Assembly (NCBI RefSeq): GCF_004138335.1
Contig: NZ_RYFW01000001.1
Coordinates: 496,001-560,000, forward strand
Source of the DNA: Peristeroidobacter agariperforans
Lineage (GTDB): Bacteria; Pseudomonadota; Gammaproteobacteria; Steroidobacterales; Steroidobacteraceae
DNA length: 64,000 nucleotides
Reading direction: 5' to 3'
The notes beneath the pieces were generated by a model. The model ran no database searches and was not told where the DNA came from. It was given only the letters and a program-made list of their open reading frames with translations. The translations under genes and the position numbers were made by a program. Shown here in pieces: positions 6,471 to 37,599 of this stretch (the first letter of the stretch is position 1; each line of letters opens with the position of its first letter).

Positions 6471-6820
6471 GGTTCCCCCAATTCTTTGCACGTTCCATGG
6501 TTGCTACGAGCGTTGCCGGGAGCCAACGCCCGACCTGTGCGATCGAGACGCGCCTGGCTTCGCTGTTGGGAAATATCCTAAAGGCAGAATGACAGCGCTG
6601 TCCAAATATTTTTATGTAGCAGAGCTTGCGCGCAATCGGGATTTTGCCAATTGCCGTTAATTCTGCGGTTGCGAAGTCCTTGTTCGCGTTGACTATCGCT
6701 GGACATTCCTGACCGTAAGAACGTAGGCTTTAAATAACGAGTTTGTTGTCCATTTGATACAAAGCTGCGTGCGTTTCGCGCCCCATAGTGCGCAACGCAC
6801 CCCAGCATCAGGGGGAAGCC
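6471..6820. promoter_or_regulatory. 350-bp divergent promoter region between TBDR and halogenase
   Basis: No gene is supported here. The stretch is AT-richer than its flanks and must hold the promoters of both divergent genes. It contains the palindrome annotated separately at 6589-6604. On the minus strand, TTGGAC overlaps the palindrome and TAGGAT follows about 19 bases later, a weak sigma-70-like pair pointing at the receptor. Confidence 0.6.
6589..6604. promoter_or_regulatory. Palindromic operator candidate (GACAGCGCTGTC)
   Basis: Twelve bases (6591-6602) are perfectly self-complementary, within ATGACAGCGCTGTCCA. The central CGCT pattern is typical of LacI- and GntR-class operators that control TonB-receptor/carbohydrate genes. 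It lies about 120 bases upstream of the receptor start and overlaps a possible -35 element, so binding would be expected to block receptor transcription. No regulator gene is adjacent, so the binding protein is unknown. Confidence 0.5.
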
Positions 6821-16332: not shown

Positions 16333-16338
16333 GGTGCT

Positions 16339-20425: not shown

Positions 20426-21781
20426 TCAGACACTCGCCGTCTTGAGCAACGACCGGTACCACAACGCGCTGCGCTTCAAAGTCCGGCGCAGAGTCGCGTA
20501 GTCCACGTGCACAATGCCGAACCGCTTGCGGTAACCCTCGGCCCACTCGAAGTTATCCATCAGGCTCCAGACGAAGTAACCGCGCACGTCGACACCCCGG
20601 TCGATCGCCTCGGCCACGGCGAGCAGGTGCGACTCGATGTACTGGCGTCGCTGCTCGTCCTCGATCCGCCCGTCCACTAACTGGTCGCGGTACGCCGCGC
20701 CGTTCTCGGTGATGTAGATCGGCGGCAGCTGGTAATCGCGCTTCAATCGGAGCAGCAAATCGCAGAGGCTGCGAGGTGCAACCTCCCAGCCCATATCGGT
20801 GACGGCTGCGCCGCTGGAAGCCGGCGCGGCAGGATTGGAGCTGCTGGACACCGTCGGGTGGTAATAATTGATGCCGACGAAATCGCACGGTTGCGCGATC
20901 AGCGCCGCATCGCCGGCTTGGACGACCGGCGCATCGGCGCCGAGATGCTCGACGATATCGCTCGGATACTGGCCCTTGAACACCGCATCCGTGTACCAGC
21001 GAACCAGCCGTCCGTCTTCGAGCCGCGCATGATGCGCATCGAGCTCGGAATCCGTAGCCGGACGAACCGGCGACATGTTCAGCACGATCCCCACTTCGGC
21101 CTTGACGCCGCTCGCGCGGATCGCCTGCATCGCCAGTCCGTGACTCAGCAATAGGTGATGACTGGCCTGGTACGCAACGCGACGGTCCTTCACTCCCGGC
21201 GCGAACACGCCGCGCTCGTAGCCAAGCACCGCCGAGACCCAAGGCTCGTTGTGAGTCGCGATGGAAACGACGCGATCGCCCAAGCGGCGCGAGATCACCT
21301 CCGCGTACTCGGCGAATCGATATGCCGTATCGCGCGCCAGCCAGCCGCCGTTCAGACGTTGCAGCTCGGCTGGCAGGTCCCAGTGATACAGCGTCGCGTA
21401 GGGTCGAATGTTTCTTTCCAGCAAGCCATCGACCAGGCGCTCGTAGAATTCGATGCCACGCTCGTTGTATGCGCCCTCGCCTGCTGGCTGAACTCGCGGC
21501 CAGCAAATGGAAAAGCGATACGCGGTGACGCCGAGATCGGCGATCAGATCCAGGTCGGATTCGAGCCGGTGATAGTGATCGCACGCCACGTCGCCGGTGC
21601 CGCCATCCGCGATTGCGCCAGGCACGCGGCAGAAGTCGTCCCAAATCGACGGGCCCTTGCCGTCGGCGCGCGCCGCACCCTCGATCTGAAAGGCGCTGGT
21701 GGCCACGCCCCAGACAAAATCGCTGGCAAAACGCCGACGCAGCTCGGCTACGGGTAATTGATCGGTCATCGCTATCTTCAT
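20426..21781 (-). CDS. GH1 beta-glucosidase
   Basis: A 451-residue family 1 glycoside hydrolase. The acid/base glutamate is in THNEP (E179), the nucleophile in YITENG (E359), and the N-terminal FVWGVATSAFQIEGA is conserved. It hydrolyses terminal beta-glucosides (or beta-galactosides/fucosides) with retention. No signal peptide is present, so it should act in the cytoplasm on sugars brought in by the sugar porter of the same operon. The ATG at 21781 overlaps the LacI stop codon by 4 bases; a second ATG 12 bases later is an alternative start. It is the last gene of MFS-LacI-GH1. Confidence 0.94.
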   Translation of the reverse strand: MKIAMTDQLPVAELRRRFASDFVWGVATSAFQIEGAARADGKGPSIWDDFCRVPGAIADGGTGDVACDHYHRLESDLDLIADLGVTAYRFSICWPRVQPAGEGAYNERGIEFYERLVDGLLERNIRPYATLYHWDLPAELQRLNGGWLARDTAYRFAEYAEVISRRLGDRVVSIATHNEPWVSAVLGYERGVFAPGVKDRRVAYQASHHLLLSHGLAMQAIRASGVKAEVGIVLNMSPVRPATDSELDAHHARLEDGRLVRWYTDAVFKGQYPSDIVEHLGADAPVVQAGDAALIAQPCDFVGINYYHPTVSSSSNPAAPASSGAAVTDMGWEVAPRSLCDLLLRLKRDYQLPPIYITENGAAYRDQLVDGRIEDEQRRQYIESHLLAVAEAIDRGVDVRGYFVWSLMDNFEWAEGYRKRFGIVHVDYATLRRTLKRSALWYRSLLKTASV

Positions 21782-22836
21782 TCTTTTGCAGGCGCCGCGG
21801 TGGACTCACGCACGATGAGCTCGACCTGCGGCAAGGAAATATCCGGCTGTTCACCTTGCAGCATCTGAAGCATGGCCGCGCCGGAGCTTTCGCCCAGCAC
21901 GCGGATCGATTGACGCACCGAGGTGAGCGGCGGCACTCGATAGGACGAGGAATGCAGGTCGTCGAAGCCGACGACGGAAACATCGCGTGGACAATTCAAG
22001 CCGCGGCGATACAAGGCCAGGCACGCGCCGTACGCGGTCTGATCGTTCACACAGAACAGCGCGCTGAATTTGTTTCCGGACCCGAGCAGCCGCATCGTCG
22101 CCTCGACACCGCCTTCTTCGTGGAAGTCACCGGGCACGACCAGCTTCGGATCGTGCGGAATGCCGGCGTCGGCGAGCGCGCGGCGATATCCCTTGAAACG
22201 CAGCGATGCGTCCGGGTGATCGAGAATGCCGGCGATGAAGGCGATGCGCCGATGCCCGAGCTCGATCAGGTGCCGAGTCGCGAGCCACGCACCCCGCTCG
22301 TCATCCACCGGCAGACTGAAAATGTTCTGCGCCTTCAGGCTGCGACCGCTCACCACCAGCGGCACCTGCTTCGCATAGTGGGCCAACTGTCGATCTTCCA
22401 GCCGGCCCGAGAAAATGATGATGCCGTCGACGCGCCGGGACAGCAGCTCGGCCATGCACCGTTCTTCGTCCTGCTCATCCCAATTGCCGCTCATGAACAG
22501 CGCCGTGTAACCGCGCTGCTGCAGATAATCCTCGATGCCTCGCAAGCCTTCGCCGTAGAACGGGCTGTCGATGGCCTGCGTGATGACACCGATGGTGTTC
22601 GACTTTCCCAGCGCCAGTCCGCGCGCGGCGGCGTTCGGCCGGAAATTGAGCTTGGCAATGGCCGCCTCGACCGCGTCCTTGCGCTCGGCGCTCACCTTCG
22701 CGGTGCCGTTGATGATGCGGGATACGGTCGCAATCGAAACGCCCGCTTCCTTCGCCACCATCTCCAGCGTGGGCGGGGCATCGGGCAGGGCGGTCGTAGC
22801 GCGCTTCTTCGCGTTGTTGGCAGCTCGCTTGCTCAT
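21778..22836 (-). CDS. LacI-family transcriptional regulator
   Basis: A 352-residue repressor. The helix-turn-helix is in TLEMVAKEAGVSIATVSRIINGTAKVS (residues 23-49), followed by the hinge AIAKLNFRPNAAARGLALGKS and a periplasmic-binding-protein-like effector domain of about 280 residues. The hinge helix with its leucine (RGLALGK) indicates insertion in the minor groove of a CG-centred operator. It lies between a sugar porter and GH1, and a perfect LacI-type palindrome sits at 24371-24384 upstream of both divergent transcripts. The likely inducer is a glucoside or sugar derived from it. It probably represses both arms of the locus. Confidence 0.93.
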   Translation of the reverse strand: MSKRAANNAKKRATTALPDAPPTLEMVAKEAGVSIATVSRIINGTAKVSAERKDAVEAAIAKLNFRPNAAARGLALGKSNTIGVITQAIDSPFYGEGLRGIEDYLQQRGYTALFMSGNWDEQDEERCMAELLSRRVDGIIIFSGRLEDRQLAHYAKQVPLVVSGRSLKAQNIFSLPVDDERGAWLATRHLIELGHRRIAFIAGILDHPDASLRFKGYRRALADAGIPHDPKLVVPGDFHEEGGVEATMRLLGSGNKFSALFCVNDQTAYGACLALYRRGLNCPRDVSVVGFDDLHSSSYRVPPLTSVRQSIRVLGESSGAAMLQMLQGEQPDISLPQVELIVRESTAAPAKE

Positions 22837-22852
22837 CGTCGTGCAGTGATTG

Positions 22853-24208
22853 TCAGGCTTTGGCAGTCATCAAGTCGCTTTCGAGCTGCTCGAGCGTGCG
22901 ACCTTTGGTTTCGGGCACGAGCAGCACCACGAACAGCAACGCCGCGGTAGCGAACAAGGCGAATGCCAGAAAAGTGCCGCCCGAGCCCAGCGTGGACAGC
23001 GCCCAGGGAAATATCATCGTGACCGTGGCGCTGACCAGCGCGTTCCAGAATCCTGCCACCGAAATGGCTGCGGCGCGCTGTTCGTTAGGAAATATTTCCG
23101 AGAGCAGCACCCACATCACCGGCCCCAGCGAAATCGCGAACGAAGCGACGAAACCGATGATGGCGATCAGCACCAGGCGGGCATTGTAACTTTCCTGGCT
23201 GAACGCCCAGCTGATCGCGAACAACGACAGCGCCATGCCGGCAATGCCCACGATCAGCAGCGGCTTGCGTCCCAGCTTGTCGATCAGCCAGATCGCGACG
23301 AACGTCATCGCCACATTCACCATGCCGACCATCACAGCCTGGCGGAACGCGTCGTCCACGCCGCCGCCGGCCTGCGTGAAGATCGTCGGCAAGTAATAGA
23401 AGATCGCATTGATGCCCGTGATCTGCTGAAAGAACGCCAGGCCGAGCGCGATGATCATGATCATCCGCACGCGCGAGTCGAGCAAACCGCGAAAGCCGCG
23501 CGACACTGCTTTCATCGTCAGGCTGCGCTGGATCTGTTGCAGGTTCTCCTGCGCCTGCTGCTCGCCAGCGACTCTGCGCAGTACGGCGAGGGCTGCTTCA
23601 TCCTGGCCCTTTAACAGCAACCAGCGCGGGCTCTCCGGAACGAACCACAACAAAGTGAAGTACAACAGCGCCGGCACCATCTGCACGCCGAGCATGTAGC
23701 GCCAGTTGTGTTCGCCCAGATCGAGCAGGAAATAATTCGAGAAAAACGAAGCCGAGATGCCGATCACGATCATCAACTGATTCAAGGACACCAGGCTGCC
23801 GCGCTTCTCGGCCGGGGCAATCTCCGCGATATAAACCGGCGCAATCAGAATCGCGCCGCCGACCGCCAGTCCGCCGACGATGCGAGCGGCGACGAAGCTC
23901 GGGAATGAAGTAGCGGAAGCGGCCAGTAGCGAAGACATCACGAATAACAACGCGGTGCCGAGCAAAACCCGCCGCCGGCCGAAACGATCGCTCAATGGAC
24001 CCGCGATGGCATTGCCCGCCATCGCACCCCAGCCGAGGCTGCTGACGGCAAAGCCGAGTTTCAAATCGCCGCTCGCGCCGCTGAGCGAGAAATAGTCCTT
24101 GATGAACGGCACGACGCCGGAGATCACGGTGGCGTCGAAACCGAGCAGGAATCCCCCGATCGCGACCGTCAGCGCCACGAAACCGATGTTCAACTTGCCT
24201 TGCAACAT
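22853..24208 (-). CDS. Sugar porter (MFS) transporter
   Basis: A 451-residue, twelve-segment sugar:proton symporter. Family motifs are all present: GFLLGFDATVISG in TM1, DRFGRRRVLL in loop 2-3, PESPRWLL after TM6, DKLGRKPLL in loop 8-9 and PETKGRTLEQLE at the end. The start at 24208 (MLQGKLNIGFVALTV) gives the usual short N-terminus; upstream starts at 24253 or 24358 would add up to 50 residues with no family likeness. It is the first gene of MFS-LacI-GH1 (16 bases to LacI). It should import the mono- or disaccharide that LacI senses and GH1 may cleave. Confidence 0.92.
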   Translation of the reverse strand: MLQGKLNIGFVALTVAIGGFLLGFDATVISGVVPFIKDYFSLSGASGDLKLGFAVSSLGWGAMAGNAIAGPLSDRFGRRRVLLGTALLFVMSSLLAASATSFPSFVAARIVGGLAVGGAILIAPVYIAEIAPAEKRGSLVSLNQLMIVIGISASFFSNYFLLDLGEHNWRYMLGVQMVPALLYFTLLWFVPESPRWLLLKGQDEAALAVLRRVAGEQQAQENLQQIQRSLTMKAVSRGFRGLLDSRVRMIMIIALGLAFFQQITGINAIFYYLPTIFTQAGGGVDDAFRQAVMVGMVNVAMTFVAIWLIDKLGRKPLLIVGIAGMALSLFAISWAFSQESYNARLVLIAIIGFVASFAISLGPVMWVLLSEIFPNEQRAAAISVAGFWNALVSATVTMIFPWALSTLGSGGTFLAFALFATAALLFVVLLVPETKGRTLEQLESDLMTAKA

Positions 24209-24370
24209 GTGACTCGCCGATGTTTTTAATCGTGATTTCAGTCGCGCGGTCATATCGTGACGTGGTCGCGCCACGATGTTAGCGATAACTATGACCGCTT
24301 CCCCCAAACTTCGCCAGCCGGCGTGCATCAGCCCGCTTGCCGGATCGCTCGGGAGCATGCTACCGTAATT

Positions 24371-24384
24371 TGTAAGCGCTTACA
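24371..24384. promoter_or_regulatory. LacI-type operator (perfect 14-bp palindrome)
   Basis: TGTAAGCGCTTACA is fully self-complementary with the central CG typical of LacI-family sites. It lies 81 bases before the TBDR start and about 160 bases before the sugar porter start, so one protein could control both divergent transcripts. The LacI gene two genes away in the porter operon is the obvious candidate to bind it. Confidence 0.85.
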
Positions 24385-24464
24385 TCCGGTGTTTACGGGT
24401 CTCTCCGCCGGACGCCCAGCGCAACAATAAATTGGCAGCGAATGGACATCGGGGGTAAACAGTC

Positions 24465-27443
24465 GTGAGCGATCGCGCATTTCAACGCAATAAAGTAGCG
24501 CGTGCTATCTCGTTAATTCTCGGAACGGCGGTCGCACTACCCGCCGTTTCACAGCAAACCACCGAGCTCGAAGAGGTGGTGGTCACCGGCATCCGCGGCA
24601 GTCTCACCTCATCGATGGAGCTGAAGCGCGACTCGCAGGGCGTGATGGACGGCATCGTTGCCGAAGACATCGGCAAGTTCCCGGACACCAACCTGGCCGA
24701 GTCCATGCAGCGAGTCAGCGGCGTATCCATCGATCGCTCGCTCGGTGAAGGCTCGAAAGTCACGGTTCGCGGCGTTGGACCGGACTACAACCTGGTGTTG
24801 TTGAACGGCCGCCAGATGCCCGCATCGGCACTGTTGGACACGGGCGCATCGGCATCGCGCGCTTTCGATTTCGCCAACCTCGCTTCCGAATCGATCTCGG
24901 CGATCGAGGTGTACAAGACCAGTCGCGCGGCTACGCCCACCGGCGGCATCGGCGCGACGGTCAACATCAAGACCGCGCGCCCGCTCGACAATCCGGGCTT
25001 GCACACCAGCTTCGGCGCCAAGGGCGTGATGGACACGTCGGTGGACAATCTGCCGAGCGGCCTGAAAGGCGACTCCATCACTCCCGAAGTTTCCGGCATC
25101 TACAGCCAGACCTTCGGCGATGACAAGTTCGGCATCGCGCTCAGCGCGAGCTACCAGGAACGCGACTTCGGCTTCAATCAAGCGTCGGTGGGGAACGGTT
25201 GGAAATCCTTCGCCGGCGATGAGAACAACTGGGGCACGATTCCCCAGGCCGGCGCGCCGGGCTCGGAGCGCATCACCAATCGCCCCGATGCGACCGACAC
25301 CTATTCGGTGCCGCAAAACCTGGGTTATAGCGTCAACGGCGTCGAGCGTAAGCGCACCAACGGTCAGCTGACCTTGCAGTACGCGCCGACCGACACCATC
25401 ACGACGACGCTCGACTACACCTACTCCGAGAACAAGATCGCGCAACAGCGCAACGAGCTCTCGGTGTGGTTCAACTTCGGTCCGTCGACGAGCACCTGGA
25501 CGGACGGCCCGGTGGCCGCGCCGCTGATCTACTCGGAAGCCATCGATGCCGTCGCGGCTCCCTCGGATCTGTCCATGGGCGGCGCCAAGTTCGCCACCAA
25601 GAACGAGAACAATTCGGTCGGCTTCAACGTCGAGTGGCGGGCCACCGATCGCTTCGGCCTGGCATTCGATTTCCACGATTCGAGCGCGGAATCGGGTCCC
25701 GACAGCCCGTACGGCTCGAACGCAGTGCTCGGCGTGGCTGGCTTCTTCCGCGGCACGACCACAGCGGACTTCTCGAAGGACTTCCCGGTCATCAGCGTAC
25801 AGCTGCCGCCCGGCATGACAGCCATCGATCCTGCGCGCACCGAAGTGACCGGCTCCAGCTTCCGCAACAGCTACATGAAGACGGAGATCCAGCAGGCTCA
25901 GCTCAGTGGCAACCTGGACTTCACCGATGAGTCGCGGCTCAACTTCGGTGTGGCGCTGACCGATCTGAAGAACCGCTCCGCCTATTCCAACGTGCAAATG
26001 GATTCGTGGAGCAGCAACGGCGACGCCAGCGCTTATCCCGACGACGTGTGGCGCGCCGATACCGTGCGTCACTACTTCGACAATATTTCCGGTAGCGGCA
26101 ATCCGAACCTGTTCAATCAGTTCTTCACCTTCGATTTCGAGACCGTGCGCAACATCGCCGCATCCGTCGACGGCGACGAGAACTATCGCGCCTCGCCGAT
26201 CTTCCAGGTGGACCGGCGCGTCCAGGAAGAGTCGCAGAGCGCATTCGTGCAGTACAGCCAGGAATGGGAATGGGGCCTGCCCATGCAGGGCGCGGTCGGC
26301 CTGCGTTATGAGAAGACGGATGTGACTTCGCGCTCGCTCGTGCCGACGGTCACCGGCATCAACTGGGTCGCGAACAACGAGTTCCCGTTGGTGCTCGGCC
26401 CCGGCATCTACGAACAGCTCGAAGGCGATTATGACTACGTGCTGCCGAGCCTCGACTTCGCCGTCGACCTGACCGACAGCGTCAAGCTGCGCGCAAGCTA
26501 CGGCCAGAGCATCGGCCGGCCGCTGTGGGATCAGATCCAGGGCGGCCGCACCGTCGACCAGATCGTCCGCATCAACGGCGGCACCGGCAACCAGGGCAAT
26601 CCGGGACTGAAGCCGCTGGAATCGGAGAACATCGACTTCTCGCTCGAATGGTATTACGCCGACGCGAGCTATCTGTCGGTGGGTTACTTCCGCAAGAACA
26701 TCGACAACTACATCGGCACGACGCTGGAAACGCAGACTCCGTACGATCTGCACCATCCCGGCCAGGGCGCGTATTTCCAGGAAGCCGTCGCCAATGCCTG
26801 TCCCACTGCGGAGCTGACCTGTGTCCGCAACTACATTTTCAACAACCACGATGGCGATCCCGGCGTGGACGCGGATCCGATCAACCCGGAGAATCCGAAT
26901 GTCCGCACCGGCATCATTTCCGGCCTGCCGGGCGATCCGATCGTGACGTTCGGCATCAAGGTGCCGGCGAACCAGAAGTCCGCGTCGCTGGATGGCTGGG
27001 AGCTCAACGTACAGCACATGTTCGGCGCCACCGGCTTCGGCGTGTCGGCGAACTACACGCTGGTCGACTCCAATCTCACGTACGACAACCACAACCGCGG
27101 CGAACAGTTCGCACTGGAAGGCCTGAGCGATGCGGCCAACGTGGTGGCGTTCTACGAGAACGACAGATTCCAGGTGCGCGCGGCGTACAACTGGCGTGAC
27201 GAGTTCCTTGCCGCACGCTTCGACGGCGGTGGCCTGCCGAACCCCGTCTACACCGAGGCGTACGGTCAGCTCGACGTGAACGCCAGCTACAACTGGAACG
27301 ACAACCTGACGTTGATGGCCGAGGCGATCAATCTCACCGACGAGATCTATCGCCAGCACAGCCGCAACTCTCATCAGGTGATCATGGTCCAGCAGACGGG
27401 CCCGCGCTTCATGGTCGGCGCGCGCTACAAGTTCGGCGATTGA
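24465..27443 (+). CDS. TonB-dependent receptor, TonB_Xanth_Caul type
   Basis: A 992-residue receptor with a signal sequence (through ALPAVSQQ), TonB box (ELEEVVVTGIRGSL) and the diagnostic TIGR01782 N-terminal pattern KRDSQGVMDGIVAEDIGKFPDTNLAESMQRVSGVSIDR, followed by plug and a 22-strand barrel of about 850 residues. This subfamily, common in Xanthomonads, Caulobacter and Sphingomonads, imports plant or algal oligosaccharides and often pairs with halogenase and SapC genes, as here. The GTG start at 24465 has GGGGG nine bases before it. The operator at 24371 lies in its promoter region. A terminator follows it. Confidence 0.95.
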   Translation: MSDRAFQRNKVARAISLILGTAVALPAVSQQTTELEEVVVTGIRGSLTSSMELKRDSQGVMDGIVAEDIGKFPDTNLAESMQRVSGVSIDRSLGEGSKVTVRGVGPDYNLVLLNGRQMPASALLDTGASASRAFDFANLASESISAIEVYKTSRAATPTGGIGATVNIKTARPLDNPGLHTSFGAKGVMDTSVDNLPSGLKGDSITPEVSGIYSQTFGDDKFGIALSASYQERDFGFNQASVGNGWKSFAGDENNWGTIPQAGAPGSERITNRPDATDTYSVPQNLGYSVNGVERKRTNGQLTLQYAPTDTITTTLDYTYSENKIAQQRNELSVWFNFGPSTSTWTDGPVAAPLIYSEAIDAVAAPSDLSMGGAKFATKNENNSVGFNVEWRATDRFGLAFDFHDSSAESGPDSPYGSNAVLGVAGFFRGTTTADFSKDFPVISVQLPPGMTAIDPARTEVTGSSFRNSYMKTEIQQAQLSGNLDFTDESRLNFGVALTDLKNRSAYSNVQMDSWSSNGDASAYPDDVWRADTVRHYFDNISGSGNPNLFNQFFTFDFETVRNIAASVDGDENYRASPIFQVDRRVQEESQSAFVQYSQEWEWGLPMQGAVGLRYEKTDVTSRSLVPTVTGINWVANNEFPLVLGPGIYEQLEGDYDYVLPSLDFAVDLTDSVKLRASYGQSIGRPLWDQIQGGRTVDQIVRINGGTGNQGNPGLKPLESENIDFSLEWYYADASYLSVGYFRKNIDNYIGTTLETQTPYDLHHPGQGAYFQEAVANACPTAELTCVRNYIFNNHDGDPGVDADPINPENPNVRTGIISGLPGDPIVTFGIKVPANQKSASLDGWELNVQHMFGATGFGVSANYTLVDSNLTYDNHNRGEQFALEGLSDAANVVAFYENDRFQVRAAYNWRDEFLAARFDGGGLPNPVYTEAYGQLDVNASYNWNDNLTLMAEAINLTDEIYRQHSRNSHQVIMVQQTGPRFMVGARYKFGD

Positions 27444-27475
27444 GCCGGGGCCTGCACCGAAGCTGCAGGCAGGAG

Positions 27476-27508
27476 AAGCCGCTGTTTCCCCCAGCGGCTT
27501 TTTCTTTT
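27476..27508 (+). terminator. Rho-independent terminator after the TBDR
   Basis: AAGCCGCTG and CAGCGGCTT form a perfect 9-bp stem around a 7-base loop, followed by TTTCTTTT. Just upstream, a second perfect 7-bp hairpin (27450-27456 with 27464-27470) has no T-run. The terminator lies between the receptor stop and the halogenase start, only 18 bases before that start codon, so it should reduce transcription of the downstream cassette rather than be its promoter. Confidence 0.9.
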
Positions 27509-27526
27509 CACAGGCATTATTGAGCG

Positions 27527-29077
27527 ATGGCGGAGATCCAACACATCCTGATCGTGGGTGGCGGCTCGGCCGGCTGGTTGACCGCCGGTGTGCTCGCCGC
27601 CGAGCATCGCTCGCGCACCGGCCCGACGCTGCGAATCACTCTGCTCGAGTCGCCGAATATCGGGCCCATCGGTGTCGGCGAGGGCACCTGGCCGACGATG
27701 CGTGACACGCTCAGAAGCATCGGCGTGACCGAGACCGACTTCATCCGCGAATGCGACGCCTCGTTCAAGCAAGGCTCGAAGTTCCAGCAATGGGTCAGCA
27801 ATCGACAGGACGATCGTTACTTTCATCCTTTCGTTCTGCCGCACGGCTATACCGAGACCAATCTGGTTGCGGGCTGGTTGGAACGCCATGCCGATACGCC
27901 CTTTGCGGACCTGGTGAGCTTTCAGCCGCACCTGTGCGCGCGTGACAAGGCGCCCAAACAAGCGTCGACGCCAGAGTACGCGGCCGTCGCCAACTACGCC
28001 TATCACCTCGATGCCGGCAAGTTCGGTCTGTTCCTGCGCAAGCACTGCGTCGAGCAACTGGGCGTGCACCATGTTCTCGACCACGTCGTCGGCATCAACA
28101 CGCACGACAACGGCGATATCGCGTCGGTGCAGACCAAGGACAACGGCGCGGTCGCCGCCGATCTCTTCGTCGACTGCAGCGGCATGCAGTCGCTGCTGCT
28201 CGGTCAGCACTACGGCGTGCCGTTCAAGTCGCAGAAGCACGTGCTGTTCAACGATTCGGCACTGGCCATCCAGGTGCCCTATCAGAACGACGACAGCCCG
28301 ATCGGGTCGCAGACCGTCTCGACCGCACAAAGCAACGGCTGGATCTGGGATATCGGCCTGCCGACACGACGCGGCATCGGTCACGTGTATTCGAGCGCGC
28401 ACACCACAGACGAAGCCGCCGAACGCGAGCTGCGGGCATACATCGAGCGCACGGGCGGGCCGCAGGGCGTACCGTCGCCGCGCAAACTCACGTTCAATCC
28501 GGGCTACCGCGACAAGTTCTGGCACCGGAACTGCGTGGCGATCGGGCTTTCAGCGGGATTCATCGAGCCGCTGGAAGCTTCGGCACTCGCGCTGGTCGAG
28601 CTCTCTGCTGCGATGTTGAGAGACCAGATGCCGACAACGCGCGCTTCGATGGACATCGTCGCTCGCCGCTTCAACGATGCTTTCACCTACCGCTGGGAGC
28701 GAGTGATCGACTTCCTGAAGCTGCACTACGTGCTCACCCGACGGACCGACTCGGATTTCTGGCGCGACAATGCTCGCCCCGCTTCCATACCCGAACGCCT
28801 GCAGGAACAACTGACGATGTGGCGCCATCAGCCGCCGTCCCGTTACGATTTCCATCGCATCGAAGAAGTATTCCCATCGGCGAGTTATCAGTACGTGCTG
28901 TACGGAATGGGCTTTCGCCCGGATCGCTCCGGCGCTGCTCGACGCAGCGATGACGCCGAGCGCGCCGATGGTTACTTCCGTGAAGCAGCCGCACTGACGA
29001 GCAAGATGCTGGCCGCACTACCCACGAACCGAGCGCTGATCGATCACATCAGGCGCAACGGTCTGTCGAGAATTTGA
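27527..29077 (+). CDS. Divergent flavin-dependent halogenase
   Basis: A 516-residue halogenase-family flavoprotein with the FAD motif GGGSAGWLTAG, the catalytic lysine in SFKQGSKF (K81), and EPLEASALALVE holding the glutamate (E350). Two signatures differ from both other halogenases here: WxWxIP is WIWDIG (272-277), and the residue after the active-site glutamate is Ala (351) instead of Ser. It is also longer in its mid-section. It therefore may use another substrate or have altered halide chemistry. It begins 18 bases after the terminator with a weak ribosome-binding site and leads the halogenase/SapC/JmjC-like/halogenase cassette. The 6-base gap to SapC indicates co-transcription. Confidence 0.88.
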   Translation: MAEIQHILIVGGGSAGWLTAGVLAAEHRSRTGPTLRITLLESPNIGPIGVGEGTWPTMRDTLRSIGVTETDFIRECDASFKQGSKFQQWVSNRQDDRYFHPFVLPHGYTETNLVAGWLERHADTPFADLVSFQPHLCARDKAPKQASTPEYAAVANYAYHLDAGKFGLFLRKHCVEQLGVHHVLDHVVGINTHDNGDIASVQTKDNGAVAADLFVDCSGMQSLLLGQHYGVPFKSQKHVLFNDSALAIQVPYQNDDSPIGSQTVSTAQSNGWIWDIGLPTRRGIGHVYSSAHTTDEAAERELRAYIERTGGPQGVPSPRKLTFNPGYRDKFWHRNCVAIGLSAGFIEPLEASALALVELSAAMLRDQMPTTRASMDIVARRFNDAFTYRWERVIDFLKLHYVLTRRTDSDFWRDNARPASIPERLQEQLTMWRHQPPSRYDFHRIEEVFPSASYQYVLYGMGFRPDRSGAARRSDDAERADGYFREAAALTSKMLAALPTNRALIDHIRRNGLSRI

Positions 29078-29083
29078 CGCGCT

Positions 29084-29794
29084 ATGAGCAAACACGTCCT
29101 GCTGAACAACGTCGACCACAAAGACCTGCGCGTGATCACGACGCGCAGCGCCGAGTACGGCGACAACGTCATGCTCGCGACCACGTTCCCTGGAGAGTTC
29201 CGCAACCTCCAGGCGCACTATCCCATCGTGTTTCGCAAAAACGCGCAGGGGCAGTTCGAACCGGTGGCGTTGCTCGGGTTCAAGGACGGGCAGAATTTGT
29301 TTCTTGGCAAGCAGGGCTGGGACGCGACGTACATTCCGATGACCATCGAGCGCCTGCCGTTCCTGATCGGTTTCTCGCAGGACCGCCAGCCGATGATGCA
29401 CATCGATCTGGATAGCCCGCGCGTCAGCCGCACGCAGGGCGAGCCGATCTTCCGCGAGTTCGGCGGCAATACCGAATTCCTCGAACGTATGAATTCGCTG
29501 CTGCTCGCCATCCATCACGGTCTCGCCGCCAACGAGCCTTTCATCGGCGCACTGCTCCAGTACGAGTTGCTCGAGTCGTTCGTGCTCGACATCCAGCTGA
29601 ACGATGGCTCGCAGAACCGACTGGCCGGCTTCTACACCCTCAAGGAGGAGCGCCTGCTCGACCTGAACGGCGCGGTGCTGGAACGATTGAATCGTGCCGG
29701 CCACCTGCACGCCATCTACATGGCGATCGCTTCTATTTCCAACTTCCGCGCGCTGATCGAGCGTGTGAACAAGCTCAATGCTGGCGAGCGCTAG
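29084..29794 (+). CDS. SapC family protein
   Basis: A 236-residue SapC-family protein: VDHKDLRVITTRSAEYGDNVML near the start, then QAHYPIVFRKNAQGQFEPVALLGFKDGQNLFL, followed by WDATYIPMTIERLPFLIG. SapC was named after a Campylobacter S-layer gene cluster; the function is not known, and the family recurs beside TBDR/halogenase gene sets in proteobacteria. There is no signal peptide or membrane segment, so the protein is probably cytoplasmic. It begins 6 bases after the first halogenase, and its end overlaps the next gene by 17 bases. I infer a role in the same modification or sensing step, with no direct evidence. Confidence 0.9.
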   Translation: MSKHVLLNNVDHKDLRVITTRSAEYGDNVMLATTFPGEFRNLQAHYPIVFRKNAQGQFEPVALLGFKDGQNLFLGKQGWDATYIPMTIERLPFLIGFSQDRQPMMHIDLDSPRVSRTQGEPIFREFGGNTEFLERMNSLLLAIHHGLAANEPFIGALLQYELLESFVLDIQLNDGSQNRLAGFYTLKEERLLDLNGAVLERLNRAGHLHAIYMAIASISNFRALIERVNKLNAGER

Positions 29795-30791
29795 AAGAAT
29801 CCCGGAGATCGCCGGAGTCGATCCGCGCGCGCTGCCGGACGATGTGCTGTTGTCGACGCAGCCAGTCGTGCTCAAGGGGCTGGTCGCCGATTGGCCGATG
29901 GTGCGTGCGGGGCTGGAATCGAATCAGTCCGCGGTCGCCTACATCCGCAAGTTTTATCGTGATGCGACGGTGGGCGCGCTGCTCGGCGCACCGGAGATCG
30001 ACGGCCGGTTCTTCTATAACGAGGACCTGAGCGGCTTCAACTTCAAAGCGGTCAAGCTGAAGCTGGACGTCATGCTCGATGAAGTCGAGCGTCACAAGGA
30101 TGCGGTGAAGCCGCCGGCCATCTACGTCGGCTCGACGACGGTCGACACGTGTTTGCCGGGATTCCGTGGCGAGAACGATCTGGGCTTCCGCGAGCGGCAG
30201 CCGCTCGTCAGCATCTGGCTGGGCAATCGCACGCGCATCGCCGCTCATCACGATCTGCCCGACAACATCGCGTGCGTGGTCGTCGGTCATCGACGCTTCA
30301 CCTTGTTCCCGCCCGAGCAGTTGGAGAATCTGTATATCGGGCCGCTGGATTTCACGCCGGCCGGACAGGCCATCAGCATGGTGGATTTCGCGAAGCCGGA
30401 CCTGCAGCGCTTCCCGAAGTTCGCCGAGGCAGCGCGTCACGCACACGTGGCCGAGCTCAGCCCCGGCGATGCGATTTTCATTCCGAGCATGTGGTGGCAT
30501 CACATCGAGGCGCTCGACAGCCTCAATGTGCTGGTGAACTACTGGTGGCGCCGCTCGCCGGCGTTCATGGACTCGCCGATCGGCGCGTTGATGTACGCGA
30601 TCATGACCGTGCGCGATCTGCCGAAAGAGCAGCGTGACGCATGGTTCAACCTGTTTCGTCACTATGTTTTCGAGGCGGACGAGCAGACCGCCGCACATAT
30701 TCCAGAAGGCGCCCGCCGCGCCTTGTCGCCCATGGACGCCGACATCGCCCGCGACATTCGCGCGCGGCTGCTGCAAAGATTGAATCGTTAG
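29778..30791 (+). CDS. JmjC-like cupin_8 oxygenase
   Basis: A 337-residue double-stranded beta-helix protein. It carries the Fe(II) triad: HHD at residues 157-159 (H157-x-D159) and a distal histidine in WWHHI (241 or 242). RRFTLFPPEQLENLYIGP and the C-terminal WWRR are typical of cupin_8/JmjC-like Fe(II)/2-oxoglutarate hydroxylases, which often hydroxylate protein side chains. The gene overlaps SapC by 17 bases and precedes the second halogenase by 9. The combination of an oxygenase with two halogenases suggests sequential modification of one substrate, possibly a protein or peptide. That is inference. Confidence 0.88.
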   Translation: MLASARRIPEIAGVDPRALPDDVLLSTQPVVLKGLVADWPMVRAGLESNQSAVAYIRKFYRDATVGALLGAPEIDGRFFYNEDLSGFNFKAVKLKLDVMLDEVERHKDAVKPPAIYVGSTTVDTCLPGFRGENDLGFRERQPLVSIWLGNRTRIAAHHDLPDNIACVVVGHRRFTLFPPEQLENLYIGPLDFTPAGQAISMVDFAKPDLQRFPKFAEAARHAHVAELSPGDAIFIPSMWWHHIEALDSLNVLVNYWWRRSPAFMDSPIGALMYAIMTVRDLPKEQRDAWFNLFRHYVFEADEQTAAHIPEGARRALSPMDADIARDIRARLLQRLNR

Positions 30792-30800
30792 GGGAATTGC

Positions 30801-32291
30801 ATGACCAGCAAACGCATCCAGAAGATCGTCATCGCCGGCGGCGGCACTGCGGGTTGGATGGTCGCCGCCGGTCTGTCGCGAACCCTGGGCAAGGCGCTCG
30901 ACATCAAGCTGGTCGAGTCCGATGAGATCGGCACGGTCGGCGTCGGCGAAGCGACCATCCCGACATTGGTGACATTTCACCGCCTGCTCGACATCAACGA
31001 GCAGGAGTTCATGGCCGCGACCCAGGGAACGTTCAAGCTCGGCATCGGCTTCGAGAACTGGCGCGACGTGAACCAGCACTACATCCATTCGTTCGGCACC
31101 ACGGGCAAGGATCACTGGACCGCCGGCTTCCAGCACTTCTGGCTCAAGGGCCGCCAGCGCAATCTCGCCGGCGACTATGGCGACTACTGCGTCGAGCTGA
31201 AGGCCGCGCTCGAAAACAAGTTCGCGCACTTGCCACGCAGCGGCATGAACTACGCCTTTCACATCGATGCCGGCCTCTACGCCAGGTTCCTGCGGAAGTT
31301 CAGCGAGGGCTATGGGGTCAAGCGCATCGAAGGAAAGATCACCAACGTCCTCACGCACGACGACACTGGCTTCATCAAAGCCATTCGCCTGGACTCGGGC
31401 GCGGAGATCGAAGGCGATCTGTTCATCGACTGCACCGGCTTCCGCGCACTCCTGATCGGCCAGACGCTGCACGAGCCATATGAGGATTGGTCGCACTGGC
31501 TGCCGTGCGACAGCGCAGTCGCCGTCCAAACAGAATCCGTCGGTGACGCCATTCCATTGACGCGCTCCATCGCGCGTGAATCTGGATGGCAGTGGCGCAT
31601 TCCGCTGCAACACCGCGTTGGCAATGGCATGGTTTATTGCAGCCGTTACATCAGCGACGAGCAGGCGAAACAGTCGTTGCTCGCGAACATCGAAGGCAAG
31701 GTGCGCACCGAGCCGCGCGTCATCAAGTTCAAGCCCGGCCAGCGGCGGCAAACCTGGGTGAAAAACTGCGTCGCCGTCGGACTCGCGAGCGGCTTCATCG
31801 AGCCGCTGGAGTCGACCAGCATTCATCTGATCGGCCGCAGCATCATCCGCCTGCTACAGATGTTTCCAGGCACGGGCATCAATCCGAGCGACATCGCGGA
31901 GTTCAATCGCCAGACGGTGGCGGAGCTGGAGCACATCCGCGACTTCATCGTCCTGCACTACCACGTCACCAATCGCCAGGACACGCCGTTCTGGAACGCC
32001 TGCCGGACCATGGAAATACCCGCGTCGTTACAGCATCGCATCGACCTGTTCCGCGAGACTGGTCGGGTATTCCGCTTACAGAACGAGCTGTTCGCCGAGA
32101 ACTCCTGGATCCAGGTGATGCTCGGCCAGGGCATCGTGCCCAAGCAATATCACCAGGTGGCGGACTTGATGGGCGACGCGGAGCTGTCGAGATTCCTGGA
32201 TCAAATCAAATCGCAAGTCGACAACACGGTGCTACAGCTGCCGAAGCATCAGGCGTATGTCGAGCAATACTGCAAGGCCACCGCCCCTTAA
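30801..32291 (+). CDS. Flavin-dependent (tryptophan-type) halogenase
   Basis: A 496-residue halogenase with complete signatures: [12 protein letters not shown], catalytic K79 in GTFKLGIGF, WQWRIP (263-268) and [10 protein letters not shown] (E337). It is clearly closer to the 6821-8332 halogenase than to its neighbour at 27527: they share the regions around the HWLPCDRAV / HWLPCDSAV segment and the tail MPKH / LPKH. GGGGAATTGC precedes the ATG. It is the last gene of the cassette; its stop overlaps that of the converging CoA-transferase by 4 bases. A flavin reductase must be supplied elsewhere. Confidence 0.92.
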   Translation: MTSKRIQKIVIAGGGTAGWMVAAGLSRTLGKALDIKLVESDEIGTVGVGEATIPTLVTFHRLLDINEQEFMAATQGTFKLGIGFENWRDVNQHYIHSFGTTGKDHWTAGFQHFWLKGRQRNLAGDYGDYCVELKAALENKFAHLPRSGMNYAFHIDAGLYARFLRKFSEGYGVKRIEGKITNVLTHDDTGFIKAIRLDSGAEIEGDLFIDCTGFRALLIGQTLHEPYEDWSHWLPCDSAVAVQTESVGDAIPLTRSIARESGWQWRIPLQHRVGNGMVYCSRYISDEQAKQSLLANIEGKVRTEPRVIKFKPGQRRQTWVKNCVAVGLASGFIEPLESTSIHLIGRSIIRLLQMFPGTGINPSDIAEFNRQTVAELEHIRDFIVLHYHVTNRQDTPFWNACRTMEIPASLQHRIDLFRETGRVFRLQNELFAENSWIQVMLGQGIVPKQYHQVADLMGDAELSRFLDQIKSQVDNTVLQLPKHQAYVEQYCKATAP

Positions 32292-33597: not shown

Positions 33598-35439
33598 TCA
33601 GGACCATGACACCTGCATCCAGGTCAGCCGCCACGCGCCATCCTGTCGGCCGCCGGTCGCAAAGTACGGCGTGAATGTCAGCGGCTTGCGTCCCTGCGAG
33701 TGCAATCGCAGCTCCGGCCCCGACTGCGCATTCACGACTTCGACCGCCTGCTCCAGCGAGTCCCGCTGCATGAGCAGCGTCTCCGCGCTCTTGAATTCGT
33801 CGATCAACGTTGTAGCAAAAACCAGCGGCCCGTGCGTCAACGCCAGATAGTCATAGTGCATGACCTCCTGAGCGATGGGCGCGCCATCGGGCGCTCGCGA
33901 CTCCTGCACGCTGAAGCTCGCGCGCTGATGGATCTTCGGCTGCAGAGGAACATTCAGAATCAGTTCGTCGCCGCTGCGCCACTCCCGATTCACGGTCAGG
34001 AATTCGCCCGCGCCGATGCCGGGAATCGACGCGCCATTGATCGTCGCTTCGACGCGGCCGACCCACGAGGGAATACGAACCCGCAAGCTGAAGCTGGCCG
34101 GACGTTCTGGATCGACTCGCAATCGCACGCGACCATCGAACGGATAGTTTGTGACCTGCTCCAGGCGCACGCGTCCGGCTGCTTCATTCGTGAGCGTCGC
34201 GTGCCCCGGCCCTAGCAGATTCACGCACAGGTTCTGCCCATGCTTCGCATAAGCGATCGCCGACAGTTCCTCCAACGCCATGGCCCCGCTGGACTTGCAG
34301 CAACGCCAATACGTCGTGTGCACACGCTTGCCGTTCGGAGACTGGTAGTAGCACCAGTCTTCGCCGTCAGGCGCAGCCGCACCGAGCAGATCGTTGTATG
34401 CGGTCCGCTCGATCTCTTCGGCGTAACGCGCCTCTCCGGTGATCGTCAGCAGCTCGCGATTCAATTGCAGCCACGCGAGGATTGAGCACGTTTCAACGTA
34501 CGCGTGAGGACTGAAGACACTCGGATGATTGAACACTTCCCGCGAGCGATGCCCGACACCGCCCCAAGGCCCGCCGCCCAGCGTCAGGTGATGCTCGCGA
34601 ATCGAGTGCCACAGTCGCGTCACGACCGTTGCATATCGCTCGTCGCCCGTCGCTCGATGCAGCTTTGCGAGCCCAACCAGATTCCAGCACAGCTGATAAG
34701 CCTTGCCGGTCGCGATCTCTGCCGCATCTGCGCCCGCCAGTGCCTGCGAGATCAACCGCAACTCCGGCCGTGCCTCCGCTTGCTCGACGATGCGCGTCGC
34801 CAGCTCCAGATAGAGCTTGTCGCCGGTAGCGAAGTACAACTCCACCGCCGGGTCGAGCAGCACCGTCGCCGACATTCCGAAGTGATTGCCCAGCTCGGTG
34901 ATGTCGATCTCACCCAGCGTCAGGGCTCGCCAGCAGAGCTCGCCAATGCGACTCGCGGCCCCGACATACTTCGCATCGGGGAAATACTTGTGGACCTCGA
35001 GCAGGCCCAGGATGAGATAGCTATGAGTCCAGATATCCCAAGTGCGGAGGCTCGGCGCTCCGTCCCACGTGCGCAACGGTGGCTGCTGTTTGCGAGTGAA
35101 GCGACGCTCGAGTGCGTAGGTGCCTAGATAACCTTCCGGCGTCTGAACGCCGACCAGAAAATTCGCCACGCGCAGTACATTCTCGCGAAGATCGCGATCT
35201 CCGCTGCGATGAGCGGCTCGCGCCGCTGCATACAGCCATTTGCCCGCGTGCTCGCCATACCAGTCGCCTTCGTAGTTCTGCTCGCGATGCTTCGGATGGA
35301 ACAAAGCAATCGCGGGACTGTGTTCGTCGACGATGAAGCGGCTCAGCCGGCCCAATGAATTGGCGGTCAATGCTTCGCCGAGGACGCCGCCGAGTGCGAC
35401 ATCCGCCGGATCTGCAAACTGCATGAGCGCGTTGGGCAC
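33598..35439 (-). CDS. GH127 beta-L-arabinofuranosidase-like protein
   Basis: A 613-residue GH127 (formerly DUF1680) enzyme. The zinc/catalytic set of HypBA1 is kept: YVETCS (E316, C318) and YWRCCKSSG (C380, C381). The alpha/alpha toroid occupies about residues 20-430, with beta-sandwich domains after it. Members remove beta-L-arabinofuranose or related sugars, the Cys acting as nucleophile. No signal peptide, so it likely acts in the cytoplasm. The GTG start at 35439 is 6 bases after the fusion gene. It is the last gene of the serine hydrolase/kinase/fusion/GH127 unit. Confidence 0.91.
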   Translation of the reverse strand: MPNALMQFADPADVALGGVLGEALTANSLGRLSRFIVDEHSPAIALFHPKHREQNYEGDWYGEHAGKWLYAAARAAHRSGDRDLRENVLRVANFLVGVQTPEGYLGTYALERRFTRKQQPPLRTWDGAPSLRTWDIWTHSYLILGLLEVHKYFPDAKYVGAASRIGELCWRALTLGEIDITELGNHFGMSATVLLDPAVELYFATGDKLYLELATRIVEQAEARPELRLISQALAGADAAEIATGKAYQLCWNLVGLAKLHRATGDERYATVVTRLWHSIREHHLTLGGGPWGGVGHRSREVFNHPSVFSPHAYVETCSILAWLQLNRELLTITGEARYAEEIERTAYNDLLGAAAPDGEDWCYYQSPNGKRVHTTYWRCCKSSGAMALEELSAIAYAKHGQNLCVNLLGPGHATLTNEAAGRVRLEQVTNYPFDGRVRLRVDPERPASFSLRVRIPSWVGRVEATINGASIPGIGAGEFLTVNREWRSGDELILNVPLQPKIHQRASFSVQESRAPDGAPIAQEVMHYDYLALTHGPLVFATTLIDEFKSAETLLMQRDSLEQAVEVVNAQSGPELRLHSQGRKPLTFTPYFATGGRQDGAWRLTWMQVSWS

Positions 35440-35445
35440 AGCGAA

Positions 35446-37599
35446 TCAGCCGGCGTCCACGACGCAGCGGAAACCCAGCATGCCCGCGCGATCTTTCGAC
35501 GGCGCCATCAGCAGATACTTGCCATGCTGATCGAGCTGATACGCCTGAGGGAAGTACCAGTGCGATGTTTGCGGCAGATAAGAGCTGCCACCGCGAAGTG
35601 CAGCGGCACGCGTATGCTCGTCGTAGAACTCACTGGTCCATTGCCACACGTTGCCGACCAGGTCCATCACACCAAACGGGCTCGCTGCTTGGGGATGGGC
35701 ATCCACGTCGGCAGGCACAGGCATCTCACGTTCCTTGCTCTGCGTGGGCATGTTCGACGTATTCCAGTCGTTGCCCCACGGATAGAGACGACCATCGGTG
35801 CCCTGCGCGGCGTACTGCCACTCCCATTCATGCGGCAGCCGTTTGCCGGCCCAGGCGGCATAGGCCCGCGCGTCCTCGATCGACACCCATGTGACCGGCT
35901 TCTTCTCCCAGCCCTTGCGTGGCGCGCCGTCGACCCAATCGCGCAGGAAGTTGTGCGCATCCTTCGGTCGATAGCCGCTCGCGTCCAGGAATTTCCTGAA
36001 CTGGGCATTGGTCACCGGATATTTGTCGATGTGGAACGACTTGACGTGCATGCGATGCCGATGGCTGCGACGCGCCGAGTTCTCCCAGGGATACTGGAAA
36101 TCCAGGCCCTTCCAGGTGTAGCCCTCGATCTCGATGCCGCCGACGACGAAGTCGAAATCCGCGGCCGGAATCGTGACCATGCCTTCGGGGGCCGAGGCCG
36201 CGGGCCTGGTCGACTCGATCTCCACCATCTTTTGCGGGATCGCTTGCCAGACGTTCGACAGCGACTGCAGCGGGACTTCGTTGTATTTCTTCATCTGCGC
36301 GAGCAGCGCATCGAGGCCTTCGACACTCGCGCCGCTCTCGAGTGCAAGGACCGCACCGTAGCCGCGCGTTTCCAAGGTCAGAGAAATGTGAGCCTGGCCG
36401 TCGACGATGCGGGGCGAGAGGCGCGTGCCATTCCACAAGTCGTAGTACGTCCGACCCTCGACGTGCGGCACGACCAGTTGCTCGCCGAACATGTCGTATT
36501 CATTGCGATTGACGATGCTCCACAGCGTCTTGGTCGGCGACGGGAACTTGCTTGCGAACACGCCCTGCTGAAGTGTCAGCGCGTACGGCTCCCAATCCAT
36601 GCTCACAAACAGCTCGGAGAACTTGCGCAACAGCGCCGACAGTCGGCGCAGCGCTTCTCCATCGCGCGCCGTGAACTGATTCCACACACCCCACACGTTC
36701 TCCCAGGCGACGTAGCCGATGCCGTTGAAGAACATGTAGTGGAAGTCGTCGGTGCGATCTCGCGCCCAACGGTTCTCGATGTTGATCACGTGGCGCGGCT
36801 CGAGCCACTTGAGCTTGCTGACCGCGGGAATGATCTCGGTGGAGGCCCTGCCCCAGCTCTGGTTGTTCCACATCAGCTGCTCGTCAGCATATGGCACCGA
36901 CTCGGGCTGGAACGCGAGCGGATGGCCGATGGCTTCAGAGGCCACACGGAACGAGCGCGGCACGCCGTTGTATGTGTCGCCATTCACGCCATCGGCGCCA
37001 ACCAGCTTCGCGAGCTTGGCAACTGCTTCCCAGTCCGGCACGCCTTCACCTTTGGTGCCGTTGTCCCATGCCATGGTGGGCAGAAATACTTTCACGCCGC
37101 GACGATGGAAGTCCGCAATCGCCTGCTTCAAGCCTTCCAGTCCGCCGGGCAGATCGCTCGCCAGCGCGGTTTGATTGCGATCGTCGATGCCGATGTTGGT
37201 GTAGACGTACCAGATGAGCACGCTGTCGATGCCGCCGAAGCGGCGCTCGAGATCGTCGAGATACTTGTCGACGGTGTAACGCCCCGCAACCGGGTCGTAG
37301 AAATAACGATCTTCGACCATCATCTGCGTGTGCACGATGTTCTTCTGCGTCCACGCGAACTCGGGTCGGCGATATTCGGAATCGTCGTAGCCCATACGAA
37401 TCAGATGCTCGTGCCGCCACACCTTCATCTCGGCGAGCCACACCGGCACGGCGCCCGTCACATCGATGCGCCATTGGCCGATGTTGATCATGGGCCAGCC
37501 CGGAGCTTTGCCCGGCGTCGGCAAGTGAGCGCCAACAGTGTGCGGAAGAGCGTACTCGCCGACTTGAGTCACGGGAGCGCGTTGCGGCTTCGATTTCAT
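35446..37599 (-). CDS. Putative TIM-barrel glycosidase fused to a Cys-less FGE-like domain
   Basis: A 717-residue two-part protein. Residues ~35-345 look like a TIM barrel (strand-like segments VLIWYVYTNIGIDD, GVKVFLPTMAWDN, GADGVNGDTYNG, NGIGYVAWENVWGVW) with a beta domain to ~430; I cannot assign a GH family. Residues ~470-717 are a formylglycine-generating-enzyme (SUMF1) domain: YPVTNAQFRKFLDASGY, VSIEDARAYAAWAGKRLPHEWEWQYAAQG, GNVWQWTSEF and LRGGSSYL. The copper-site cysteines of true FGE, expected just after LRGGS, are absent; only C712 remains near the end. The domain is thus probably non-catalytic for sulfatases. Its start overlaps the kinase stop by 4 bases. Confidence 0.8.
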   Translation of the reverse strand: MKSKPQRAPVTQVGEYALPHTVGAHLPTPGKAPGWPMINIGQWRIDVTGAVPVWLAEMKVWRHEHLIRMGYDDSEYRRPEFAWTQKNIVHTQMMVEDRYFYDPVAGRYTVDKYLDDLERRFGGIDSVLIWYVYTNIGIDDRNQTALASDLPGGLEGLKQAIADFHRRGVKVFLPTMAWDNGTKGEGVPDWEAVAKLAKLVGADGVNGDTYNGVPRSFRVASEAIGHPLAFQPESVPYADEQLMWNNQSWGRASTEIIPAVSKLKWLEPRHVINIENRWARDRTDDFHYMFFNGIGYVAWENVWGVWNQFTARDGEALRRLSALLRKFSELFVSMDWEPYALTLQQGVFASKFPSPTKTLWSIVNRNEYDMFGEQLVVPHVEGRTYYDLWNGTRLSPRIVDGQAHISLTLETRGYGAVLALESGASVEGLDALLAQMKKYNEVPLQSLSNVWQAIPQKMVEIESTRPAASAPEGMVTIPAADFDFVVGGIEIEGYTWKGLDFQYPWENSARRSHRHRMHVKSFHIDKYPVTNAQFRKFLDASGYRPKDAHNFLRDWVDGAPRKGWEKKPVTWVSIEDARAYAAWAGKRLPHEWEWQYAAQGTDGRLYPWGNDWNTSNMPTQSKEREMPVPADVDAHPQAASPFGVMDLVGNVWQWTSEFYDEHTRAAALRGGSSYLPQTSHWYFPQAYQLDQHGKYLLMAPSKDRAGMLGFRCVVDAG

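Follow-up and report, generated by a model that had tools for sequence, protein, structure and literature searches.

A recurring cassette of a TonB-dependent receptor, two halogenase-family proteins, SapC and a Cupin_8 protein at a LacI-linked sugar locus of Peristeroidobacter agariperforans

Xcc4156 (6y1w) and BrvH (6frl) are group C flavin-dependent halogenases. Xcc4156 brominates indole derivatives and not free tryptophan, its open active site might accept peptides, and natural substrates are stated to be unknown for BrvH as well as for the halogenases of Xanthomonas, Xcc4156 included (PMC7336383). For BrvH, indole is judged an unlikely native substrate (PMC5945002), and the main texts on the two enzymes do not mention TonB (PMC7336383, PMC5945002). 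Here, we analyzed a locus in Peristeroidobacter agariperforans, located at positions 20,426 to 32,291 of a 64,000-nucleotide stretch of assembly GCF_004138335.1 (hereafter the window), in which a TonB-dependent receptor (TBDR) gene is followed by genes for HalA (halogenase family), a SapC family protein, a Cupin_8 protein, and HalB (halogenase family). Unlike Xcc4156 and BrvH as published, the putative halogenase HalB stands here at the end of a receptor cassette. This gene order recurs in distant taxa, and comparison of genomes leaves the conservation of the unit and of a putative operator beside it well supported.

The locus can be set against several described systems. In the nix/nag carbohydrate loci of Xanthomonas and Caulobacter, a TBDR gene has reportedly been described beside SapC-related, cupin, and halogenase-like genes. 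Each of the protein families is known by itself, and loci of this type have reportedly been described; the locus in the window differs from the nix/nag loci in its LacI, GH1, and MFS genes and in its two halogenases, which belong to different branches. MibH is a lanthipeptide halogenase, and its cluster is said to include a hydroxylase. Halogenation of a ribosomal product, as by MibH, is the logic proposed below, and no precursor peptide was seen in the window. Halogenases, for example MibH, can act on ribosomal peptides (PMC8269204), and we count this, together with the peptides proposed as substrates for Xcc4156 and the action of FIH, the HIF asparaginyl hydroxylase, on proteins, in favor of our preferred reading. 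Literature searches found no text uniting SapC, tryptophan halogenase, and TonB-dependent receptor. PMC11337851 mentions a tryptophan halogenase and a TonB-dependent receptor together in unrelated expression data, PMC3377617 contains the same two terms, and the accessible parts of PMC4911050, PMC3400609, and PMC9281055 contain nothing on the combination of SapC, halogenase, and TBDR.

Genes were identified by Pfam and TIGRFAM profile matches on the translated frames of the window, and the locus has the following features.

20426-21781, minus strand: GH1 beta-glucosidase (PF00232, E 6.1e-161; TIGR03356, 617.1 bits, cut-off 478.5)
21778-22836, minus strand: LacI-family repressor (PF00356 and PF13377)
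22853-24358, minus strand: MFS sugar porter (PF00083, 389.6 bits; TIGR00879, 370.7 bits, cut-off 237.8)
24371-24384: perfect 14-bp palindrome TGTAAGCGCTTACA, putative LacI operator of the divergent promoter region
24465-27443, plus strand: TBDR of the TonB-Xanth-Caul type (TIGR01782, 662.7 bits, cut-off 310)
27481-27498, plus strand: terminator-like hairpin in the gap between receptor and enzyme genes (hairpin scan)
27527-29077, plus strand: HalA, flavin-dependent halogenase family, 2pyx-like branch (PF04820, 411.6 bits)
29084-29794, plus strand: SapC family protein (PF07277, 229.5 bits)
29778-30791, plus strand: Cupin_8 (JmjC/FIH-like) protein, putative Fe(II)/2-oxoglutarate (2OG) oxygenase (PF13621, 246.1 bits)
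30801-32291, plus strand: HalB, flavin-dependent halogenase close to Xcc4156 (PF04820, 655 bits)

The locus consists of two divergent arms, GH1-LacI-MFS on the minus strand and TBDR-HalA-SapC-Cupin8-HalB on the plus strand. The four genes from HalA to HalB overlap or lie at most 10 nucleotides (nt) apart, the gap between TBDR and HalA is 83 nt, and a convergent CoA-transferase gene terminates at 32288. An earlier reading of the window from its letters and open reading frames (the sequence-only reading) had named these genes, and profile matches recovered every one of them in place. The true start of the MFS porter is perhaps further inside the annotated frame. The presence of a TBDR, a regulator, an inner-membrane transporter, and a glycoside hydrolase is that of a carbohydrate-utilization (CUT/nix-like) locus, and the regulator has both the helix-turn-helix and the periplasmic-binding-like domain (PF00356, PF13377) of the LacI family.

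Conservation of the cassette was examined by reading gene neighborhoods in the window genome, its relatives, named genomes, and 60 SapC loci across the phylum, the last being a non-random set hand-picked among the SapC matches listed, with preference for one or few per genus and for complete genomes. Loci centered on SapC contain it by construction. Related loci were counted singly unless clusters are stated, the duplicates L075-L078 and L030 were excluded, and the operon labels of L052 and L103 (second receptor) and of L224 (one receptor) were assigned by hand. Among 61 TBDR operons with a same-strand halogenase, 21 had the full TBDR-HalA-SapC-Cupin8-HalB order, 17 had TBDR-SapC-Cupin8-HalB, 11 had TBDR-HalA-SapC, and 12 were other variants. 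The full five-gene order was present in Steroidobacter relatives, Duganella, Novosphingobium, and one Cellvibrionales metagenome-assembled genome (MAG), and gaps inside the enzyme module had a median of 5.5 nt. Eighteen of the 60 phylum SapC loci had a TBDR within 6 kb, and in 18/18 a halogenase was also there; one locus had a halogenase-like gene only, and 41 had neither within 6 kb. Co-occurrence in related genomes, which the sequence-only reading had named as an observation on which its idea of a system would stand or fall, was thus conserved. Of the 114 SapC genes placed on a tree, 58 formed a clade (support 94) in which 57 members were halogenase-linked, and the linked SapC genes outside it were L069, L099, L107, and L134 (L numbers denote surveyed loci). 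This TBDR type was found at E <= 1e-70 in 23 of 299 sampled genomes, all of them among the 36 with PF04820 at E <= 1e-70, where at most two receptor and five halogenase candidates were scored per genome and the counts ignore relatedness. A recognized receptor was present in 11 of 15 halogenase-centered loci without SapC. At L212, L217, L219, and L221-L223, at least two HalB-type genes stand in tandem beside a receptor, likewise without SapC. Two loci weigh against a strict coupling, as L062 (TBDR-SapC-Cupin8) and L065 (SapC beside a TBDR) have no halogenase on the stretch read.

Some SapC genes occur in other settings. Outside receptor cassettes, SapC adjoins reading frames of 2500-3300 aa in L074, L095, L096, L107, L108, and L109, which perhaps encode large secreted proteins; L107 also carries a halogenase-like gene. 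In L047, a second, divergent SapC (15155-16369) lies near the cassette, and the gene after it encodes a type II/IV secretion ATPase-like protein.

The palindrome TGTAAGCGCTTACA at 24371-24384 was the sole exact copy in the 7.65-Mb assembly, and at up to two mismatches it had one match in the window against 0.04 expected. Upstream of TBDR genes, the exact 14-mer was found in 9 of 78 surveyed cases (the window included) versus 2 of 780 random stretches from the same loci, and when a match at no fewer than 11 of the 12 specified positions was accepted, the numbers were 12/78 versus 4/780; the random stretches may overlap the operator itself. Five of the nine TBDR genes with the exact 14-mer were from the window's genus, and four were from four other genera. 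The single perfect LacI-type palindrome noticed earlier between the two arms is therefore present, unique in the assembly, and recurrent 5' of TBDR genes, and it is the probable LacI operator of the divergent promoter region. A simple scan for a sigma-70-like promoter found none (1.6 expected). Within 10 kb of the 21 full cassettes, LacI was found at 15, GH1 at 7, and MFS at 6, and for the 40 other operons the numbers were 8, 3, and 2, so the picture of a conserved receptor and enzyme unit beside a local LacI holds.

The enzyme-family proteins retain most residues expected of their families. The best solved relative of HalA was 2pyx, a halogenase from an unpublished structural genomics study and presumably of Shewanella origin (E 2.4e-170), and HalA and HalB were ~34% identical to each other. 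HalB matched Xcc4156 (6y1w) over the full length (E 3.3e-229), and its ATIPTL and HSFGT segments resemble the ATIPSL and HSFGH that PMC8269204 gives for Xcc4156. Both proteins matched 5uao weakly (E 5e-43 for HalA and 9e-49 for HalB), which is MibH (PMC7336383). Among halogenase relatives of 400-720 aa, the only ones taken into the residue counts, the N-terminal flavin adenine dinucleotide motif (GGG region) was kept in 38-39 of 39 HalA and 77-80 of 80 HalB relatives. The catalytic Lys/Glu pair, which we take to correspond to PrnA K79/E346, was kept in all HalA relatives (K81 39/39, E350 39/39) and most HalB relatives (K79 74/80, E337 74/80). The flavin-dependent halogenase motif GWxWxIP was mostly kept in HalB relatives, with the proline in 72/80, and was replaced by GWxWxIG in 35/39 HalA relatives.

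The nearest relatives of the Cupin_8 protein by sequence in the PDB were FIH (E 3.9e-22), which acts on proteins, and JMJD5 (E 3e-18). It shares their family and the Fe(II)-ligand pattern HxD..H (H157, D159, H241), kept in 55/55 relatives. It differs from FIH in having Arg, in 55/55 relatives, at the column aligned to K214, presumably the 2OG-binding lysine of FIH; this Arg might fill the same role, and because of it we label the protein JmjC-like and not FIH. A further gene of DUF6445 (PF20043) was found 14 times in 13 loci, never more than 4.8 kb away from a halogenase or 7.5 kb away from a receptor. One copy is in the window genome (L025:10523-11311), and the window cassette itself has none. 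All 14 DUF6445 proteins have H-x-D ... H ... R, the signature of Fe(II)/2OG oxygenases, which suggests that DUF6445 is a second Fe(II)/2OG-type oxygenase of the module.

For SapC, no convincing relative was found by sequence in the PDB (a profile search yielded only E 0.2-0.3), and an AlphaFold2 model built from 12 sequences had low confidence (pLDDT 52). Its nearest homologs in named genomes were those of Steroidobacter agaridevorans (98%) and Peristeroidobacter soli (91%), followed by a Steroidobacter MAG (86%) and Steroidobacter gossypii (82%). SapC and the TBDR are the only module proteins without an enzyme-family match. The window genome as a whole had nine strong Trp_halogenase matches (of 13 rows), six SapC, four Cupin_8, and 37 TIGR01782 rows above cut-off, two of which are fragments of one gene. 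Among the control genomes, that of Caulobacter matched PF07277, PF13621, and PF04820. The absence of a flavin reductase noted earlier for the locus extends to the whole assembly for PF01613, which matched 13 of 14 control genomes, other reductase families not having been searched. The nine strong halogenase-family matches are thus found in a genome with no PF01613 match.

The terminator-like hairpin at 27481-27498 is one of nine such sites in the 8.5-kb region, against 6.3 expected. Across loci, 52 gaps between a TBDR gene and the first enzyme gene measured 50-260 nt, and 42 of them contained a hairpin, compared with 34/193 other same-strand gaps and 18/70 convergent gaps; hairpins were also present in 28 of 34 clusters (60% receptor identity) versus 3 of 260 shuffled gaps. 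With a fixed 200-nt span, a hairpin followed 38 of 61 cassette receptors and 9 of 12 other halogenase-linked ones. A count under a looser energy threshold gave 39/61. We rejected the hairpin as a mark of halogenase linkage, because it also followed 5/5 unlinked receptors of the same clade and only 2 of 6 linked own-genome receptors (unlinked, 5/24), observations that also count against the mechanism proposed below. On these distributions, it is a property of the receptor class rather than of halogenase linkage. Since it stands between receptor and enzymes, equal expression is not a given, and the enzymes are probably expressed below receptor level. More receptor than enzyme, as the hairpin predicts, would suit catalysts acting on an abundant product.

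The sugar genes near these receptors vary. Neighbors that recurred in 26 cassette loci and five unlinked receptor loci were GH3 with Exop_C (13 loci), GH16, MFS_2, SSF, GH1, and LacI, and their recurrence suggests use of beta-glucan or beta-glucosides by this receptor subtype. Pectate-lyase-like genes stood beside two full cassettes (L043, L045). Other operons adjoined GH31 (L028); esterases, GH3, and an arabinofuranosidase (L027); galactokinase (L069); or a gluconolactonase-like gene (L103). The module genes recur while the sugar genes vary, and it is mainly on this ground that we favor as substrate a protein partner that stays constant, and not an aglycone. Genes of the HalB and HalA types are linked by the survey to one TonB receptor class, and the constant proteins left as candidates are few, with the receptor first.

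What we infer about regulation, substrate, and chemistry of the cassette is as follows. A sugar, probably a beta-glucoside or beta-glucan oligosaccharide, would lift LacI, and the receptor gene and enzyme module would then be transcribed together, with the hairpin after the receptor gene attenuating transcription and holding enzymes below receptor levels. The halogenases and the FIH-like oxygenase, presumably cytoplasmic, would add halogen and/or hydroxyl groups to side chains of a protein partner that is constant across these systems, and the likeliest such partner is the receptor polypeptide prior to its export. The modification would adjust ligand binding or maturation and would not serve to process sugar. 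SapC may be an adaptor presenting the substrate. We give this mechanism as a whole a probability of roughly 35%. The narrower proposal that the receptor polypeptide carries enzymatically halogenated or hydroxylated aromatic residues, and FIH-type hydroxylated ones, that tune ligand capture is, taken alone, improbable. If true, the module would be a dedicated post-translational system that matures outer-membrane sugar receptors, and the purpose of group C halogenases, Xcc4156 and BrvH among them, would be explained.

One receptor residue, tryptophan, offered a means of examining the receptor as substrate. A raw contrast was made between 61 linked TBDRs and 24 unlinked ones (30 own-genome receptors, out of 37 rows above cut-off, less the six that are linked), with 14 of 20 residue types scanned. 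The best-separating residue was W335 (59/61 linked vs 3/24 unlinked), and W515 (46/61 vs 0/24) and W634 (43/61 vs 0/24) appeared to track HalB operons. Several results stand against a role of these residues as targets. Unlinked receptors of the same clade, L207-L211, so counted because no halogenase is labeled in their 20 kb, keep all three tryptophans in 5/5. Independent pairs were counted on a FastTree tree of 107 of the 119 receptors; 12 added receptors (seven mis-framed, five usable) were left out, and five of 66 receptor genes, which have no same-strand halogenase, are outside the 61 and inside the tree. For any halogenase and W335, 2.7 pairs changed the same way and 2.0 the opposite way; for HalA, the values were 2.8 vs 1.0 (W335) and 3.0 vs 0 (W345), and for HalB they were 1.2 vs 1.0 (W515) and 0 vs 0 (W634). 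With 6 to 12 pairs, this test has little power and cannot rule a link out either. No Trp was among the twelve best columns by pairs for any of four traits (60 columns of top frequency difference per trait). In a low-confidence TBDR model (mean pLDDT 62; the plug is unreliable, with pLDDT mostly <40 before residue 170), for which the 50 Foldseek rows shown were other TBDRs at 10-14% identity, W335, W515, and W634 were placed at or just beyond strand ends leading into loops. The retention of the tryptophans in L207-L211, the unsupported pairs test, and the strand-end positions lead us to regard the raw correlation as best read as shared ancestry, and the tryptophans were not accepted as halogenase targets. 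The receptor, one of the substrates offered by the sequence-only reading, remains our best guess, with the one tree-corrected Trp covariation test lending it no support.

The same results bear on what the tryptophans do instead. That they are sugar-stacking residues of one clade, unrelated to the halogenases, is the likelier account of them and overlaps with the alternatives below; their persistence in the five unlinked relatives and the unsupportive tree-aware test both favor it, as do the predicted strand-end positions, expected of stacking residues. Weighing on the other side, the closest unlinked own-genome paralogs (L151, L153, and L173) have F, F, and Y at 335, and since halogenases are present in each of the 23 sampled genomes where this receptor type was found, action on receptors in trans is possible. 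It is also conceivable, if rather doubtful, that the substrate is another shared protein (SapC, TonB, or an assembly factor) or that the enzymes are flavin and 2OG monooxygenases and not halogenases. SapC shares with the receptor the lack of an enzyme-family match, and its W79 is conserved in 54/61 linked SapC proteins; however, the majority of SapC proteins without halogenases have this residue too (41 of 53 other SapC). The GWxWxIG of the HalA branch and the missing PF01613 match are further points in favor of this alternative. Against it, bromination of model substrates in vitro is described for Xcc4156, to which HalB is closely related (PMC7336383).

Small-molecule substrates and mere neighborhood were weighed in the same way. 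The suggestion that the enzymes act on a small aromatic aglycone arriving with or released from an imported glucoside has been weakened, and we hold it to be unlikely. The beta-glucosidase and sugar porter do share the operator region, GH1 and LacI lie near 7 and 15 of the 21 full cassettes, and Xcc4156 and BrvH are described as having open active sites and brominating indoles in vitro (PMC7336383, PMC5945002). However, the sugar genes beside receptors with module genes are unrelated from one locus to another, GH1 is near just 3 of the 40 operons of other types, and the reported activity of BrvH on indole is very low (2.5 mU/mg; PMC5945002). Free tryptophan, which had been considered an unlikely substrate, still appears so, as HalB groups with Xcc4156, which brominates indole derivatives and not free Trp (PMC7336383). 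A separate peptide, proposed earlier as well, has little room in the 83-nt gap; this contains a 27-codon TTG frame that is found neither in L039, a very close relative from Steroidobacter agaridevorans, nor in six other loci examined. This non-conserved frame aside, no precursor gene of a ribosomally synthesized and post-translationally modified peptide was found at the cassette, peptides encoded elsewhere not having been searched. Finally, the genes could be neighbors only, co-regulated with sugar uptake and doing separate metabolic jobs, which we regard as very unlikely. The halogenase-free L062 and L065 and the 41 of 60 SapC loci with neither TBDR nor halogenase are consistent with it, but the tight gene packing, the order kept in distant taxa, the presence of a halogenase at 18/18 TBDR-SapC loci, and the 57 linked members of the 58-member SapC clade argue against it.

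Two further regions of the window contain genes of related interest. A third halogenase-family gene (6788-8332, plus strand) adjoins a divergent TBDR gene (4113-6491, minus strand), and a PF07277 profile search found no SapC match beside it. Just past the cassette, at 33598-37599, are genes for a GH127 beta-L-arabinofuranosidase and an FGE-sulfatase-domain protein.

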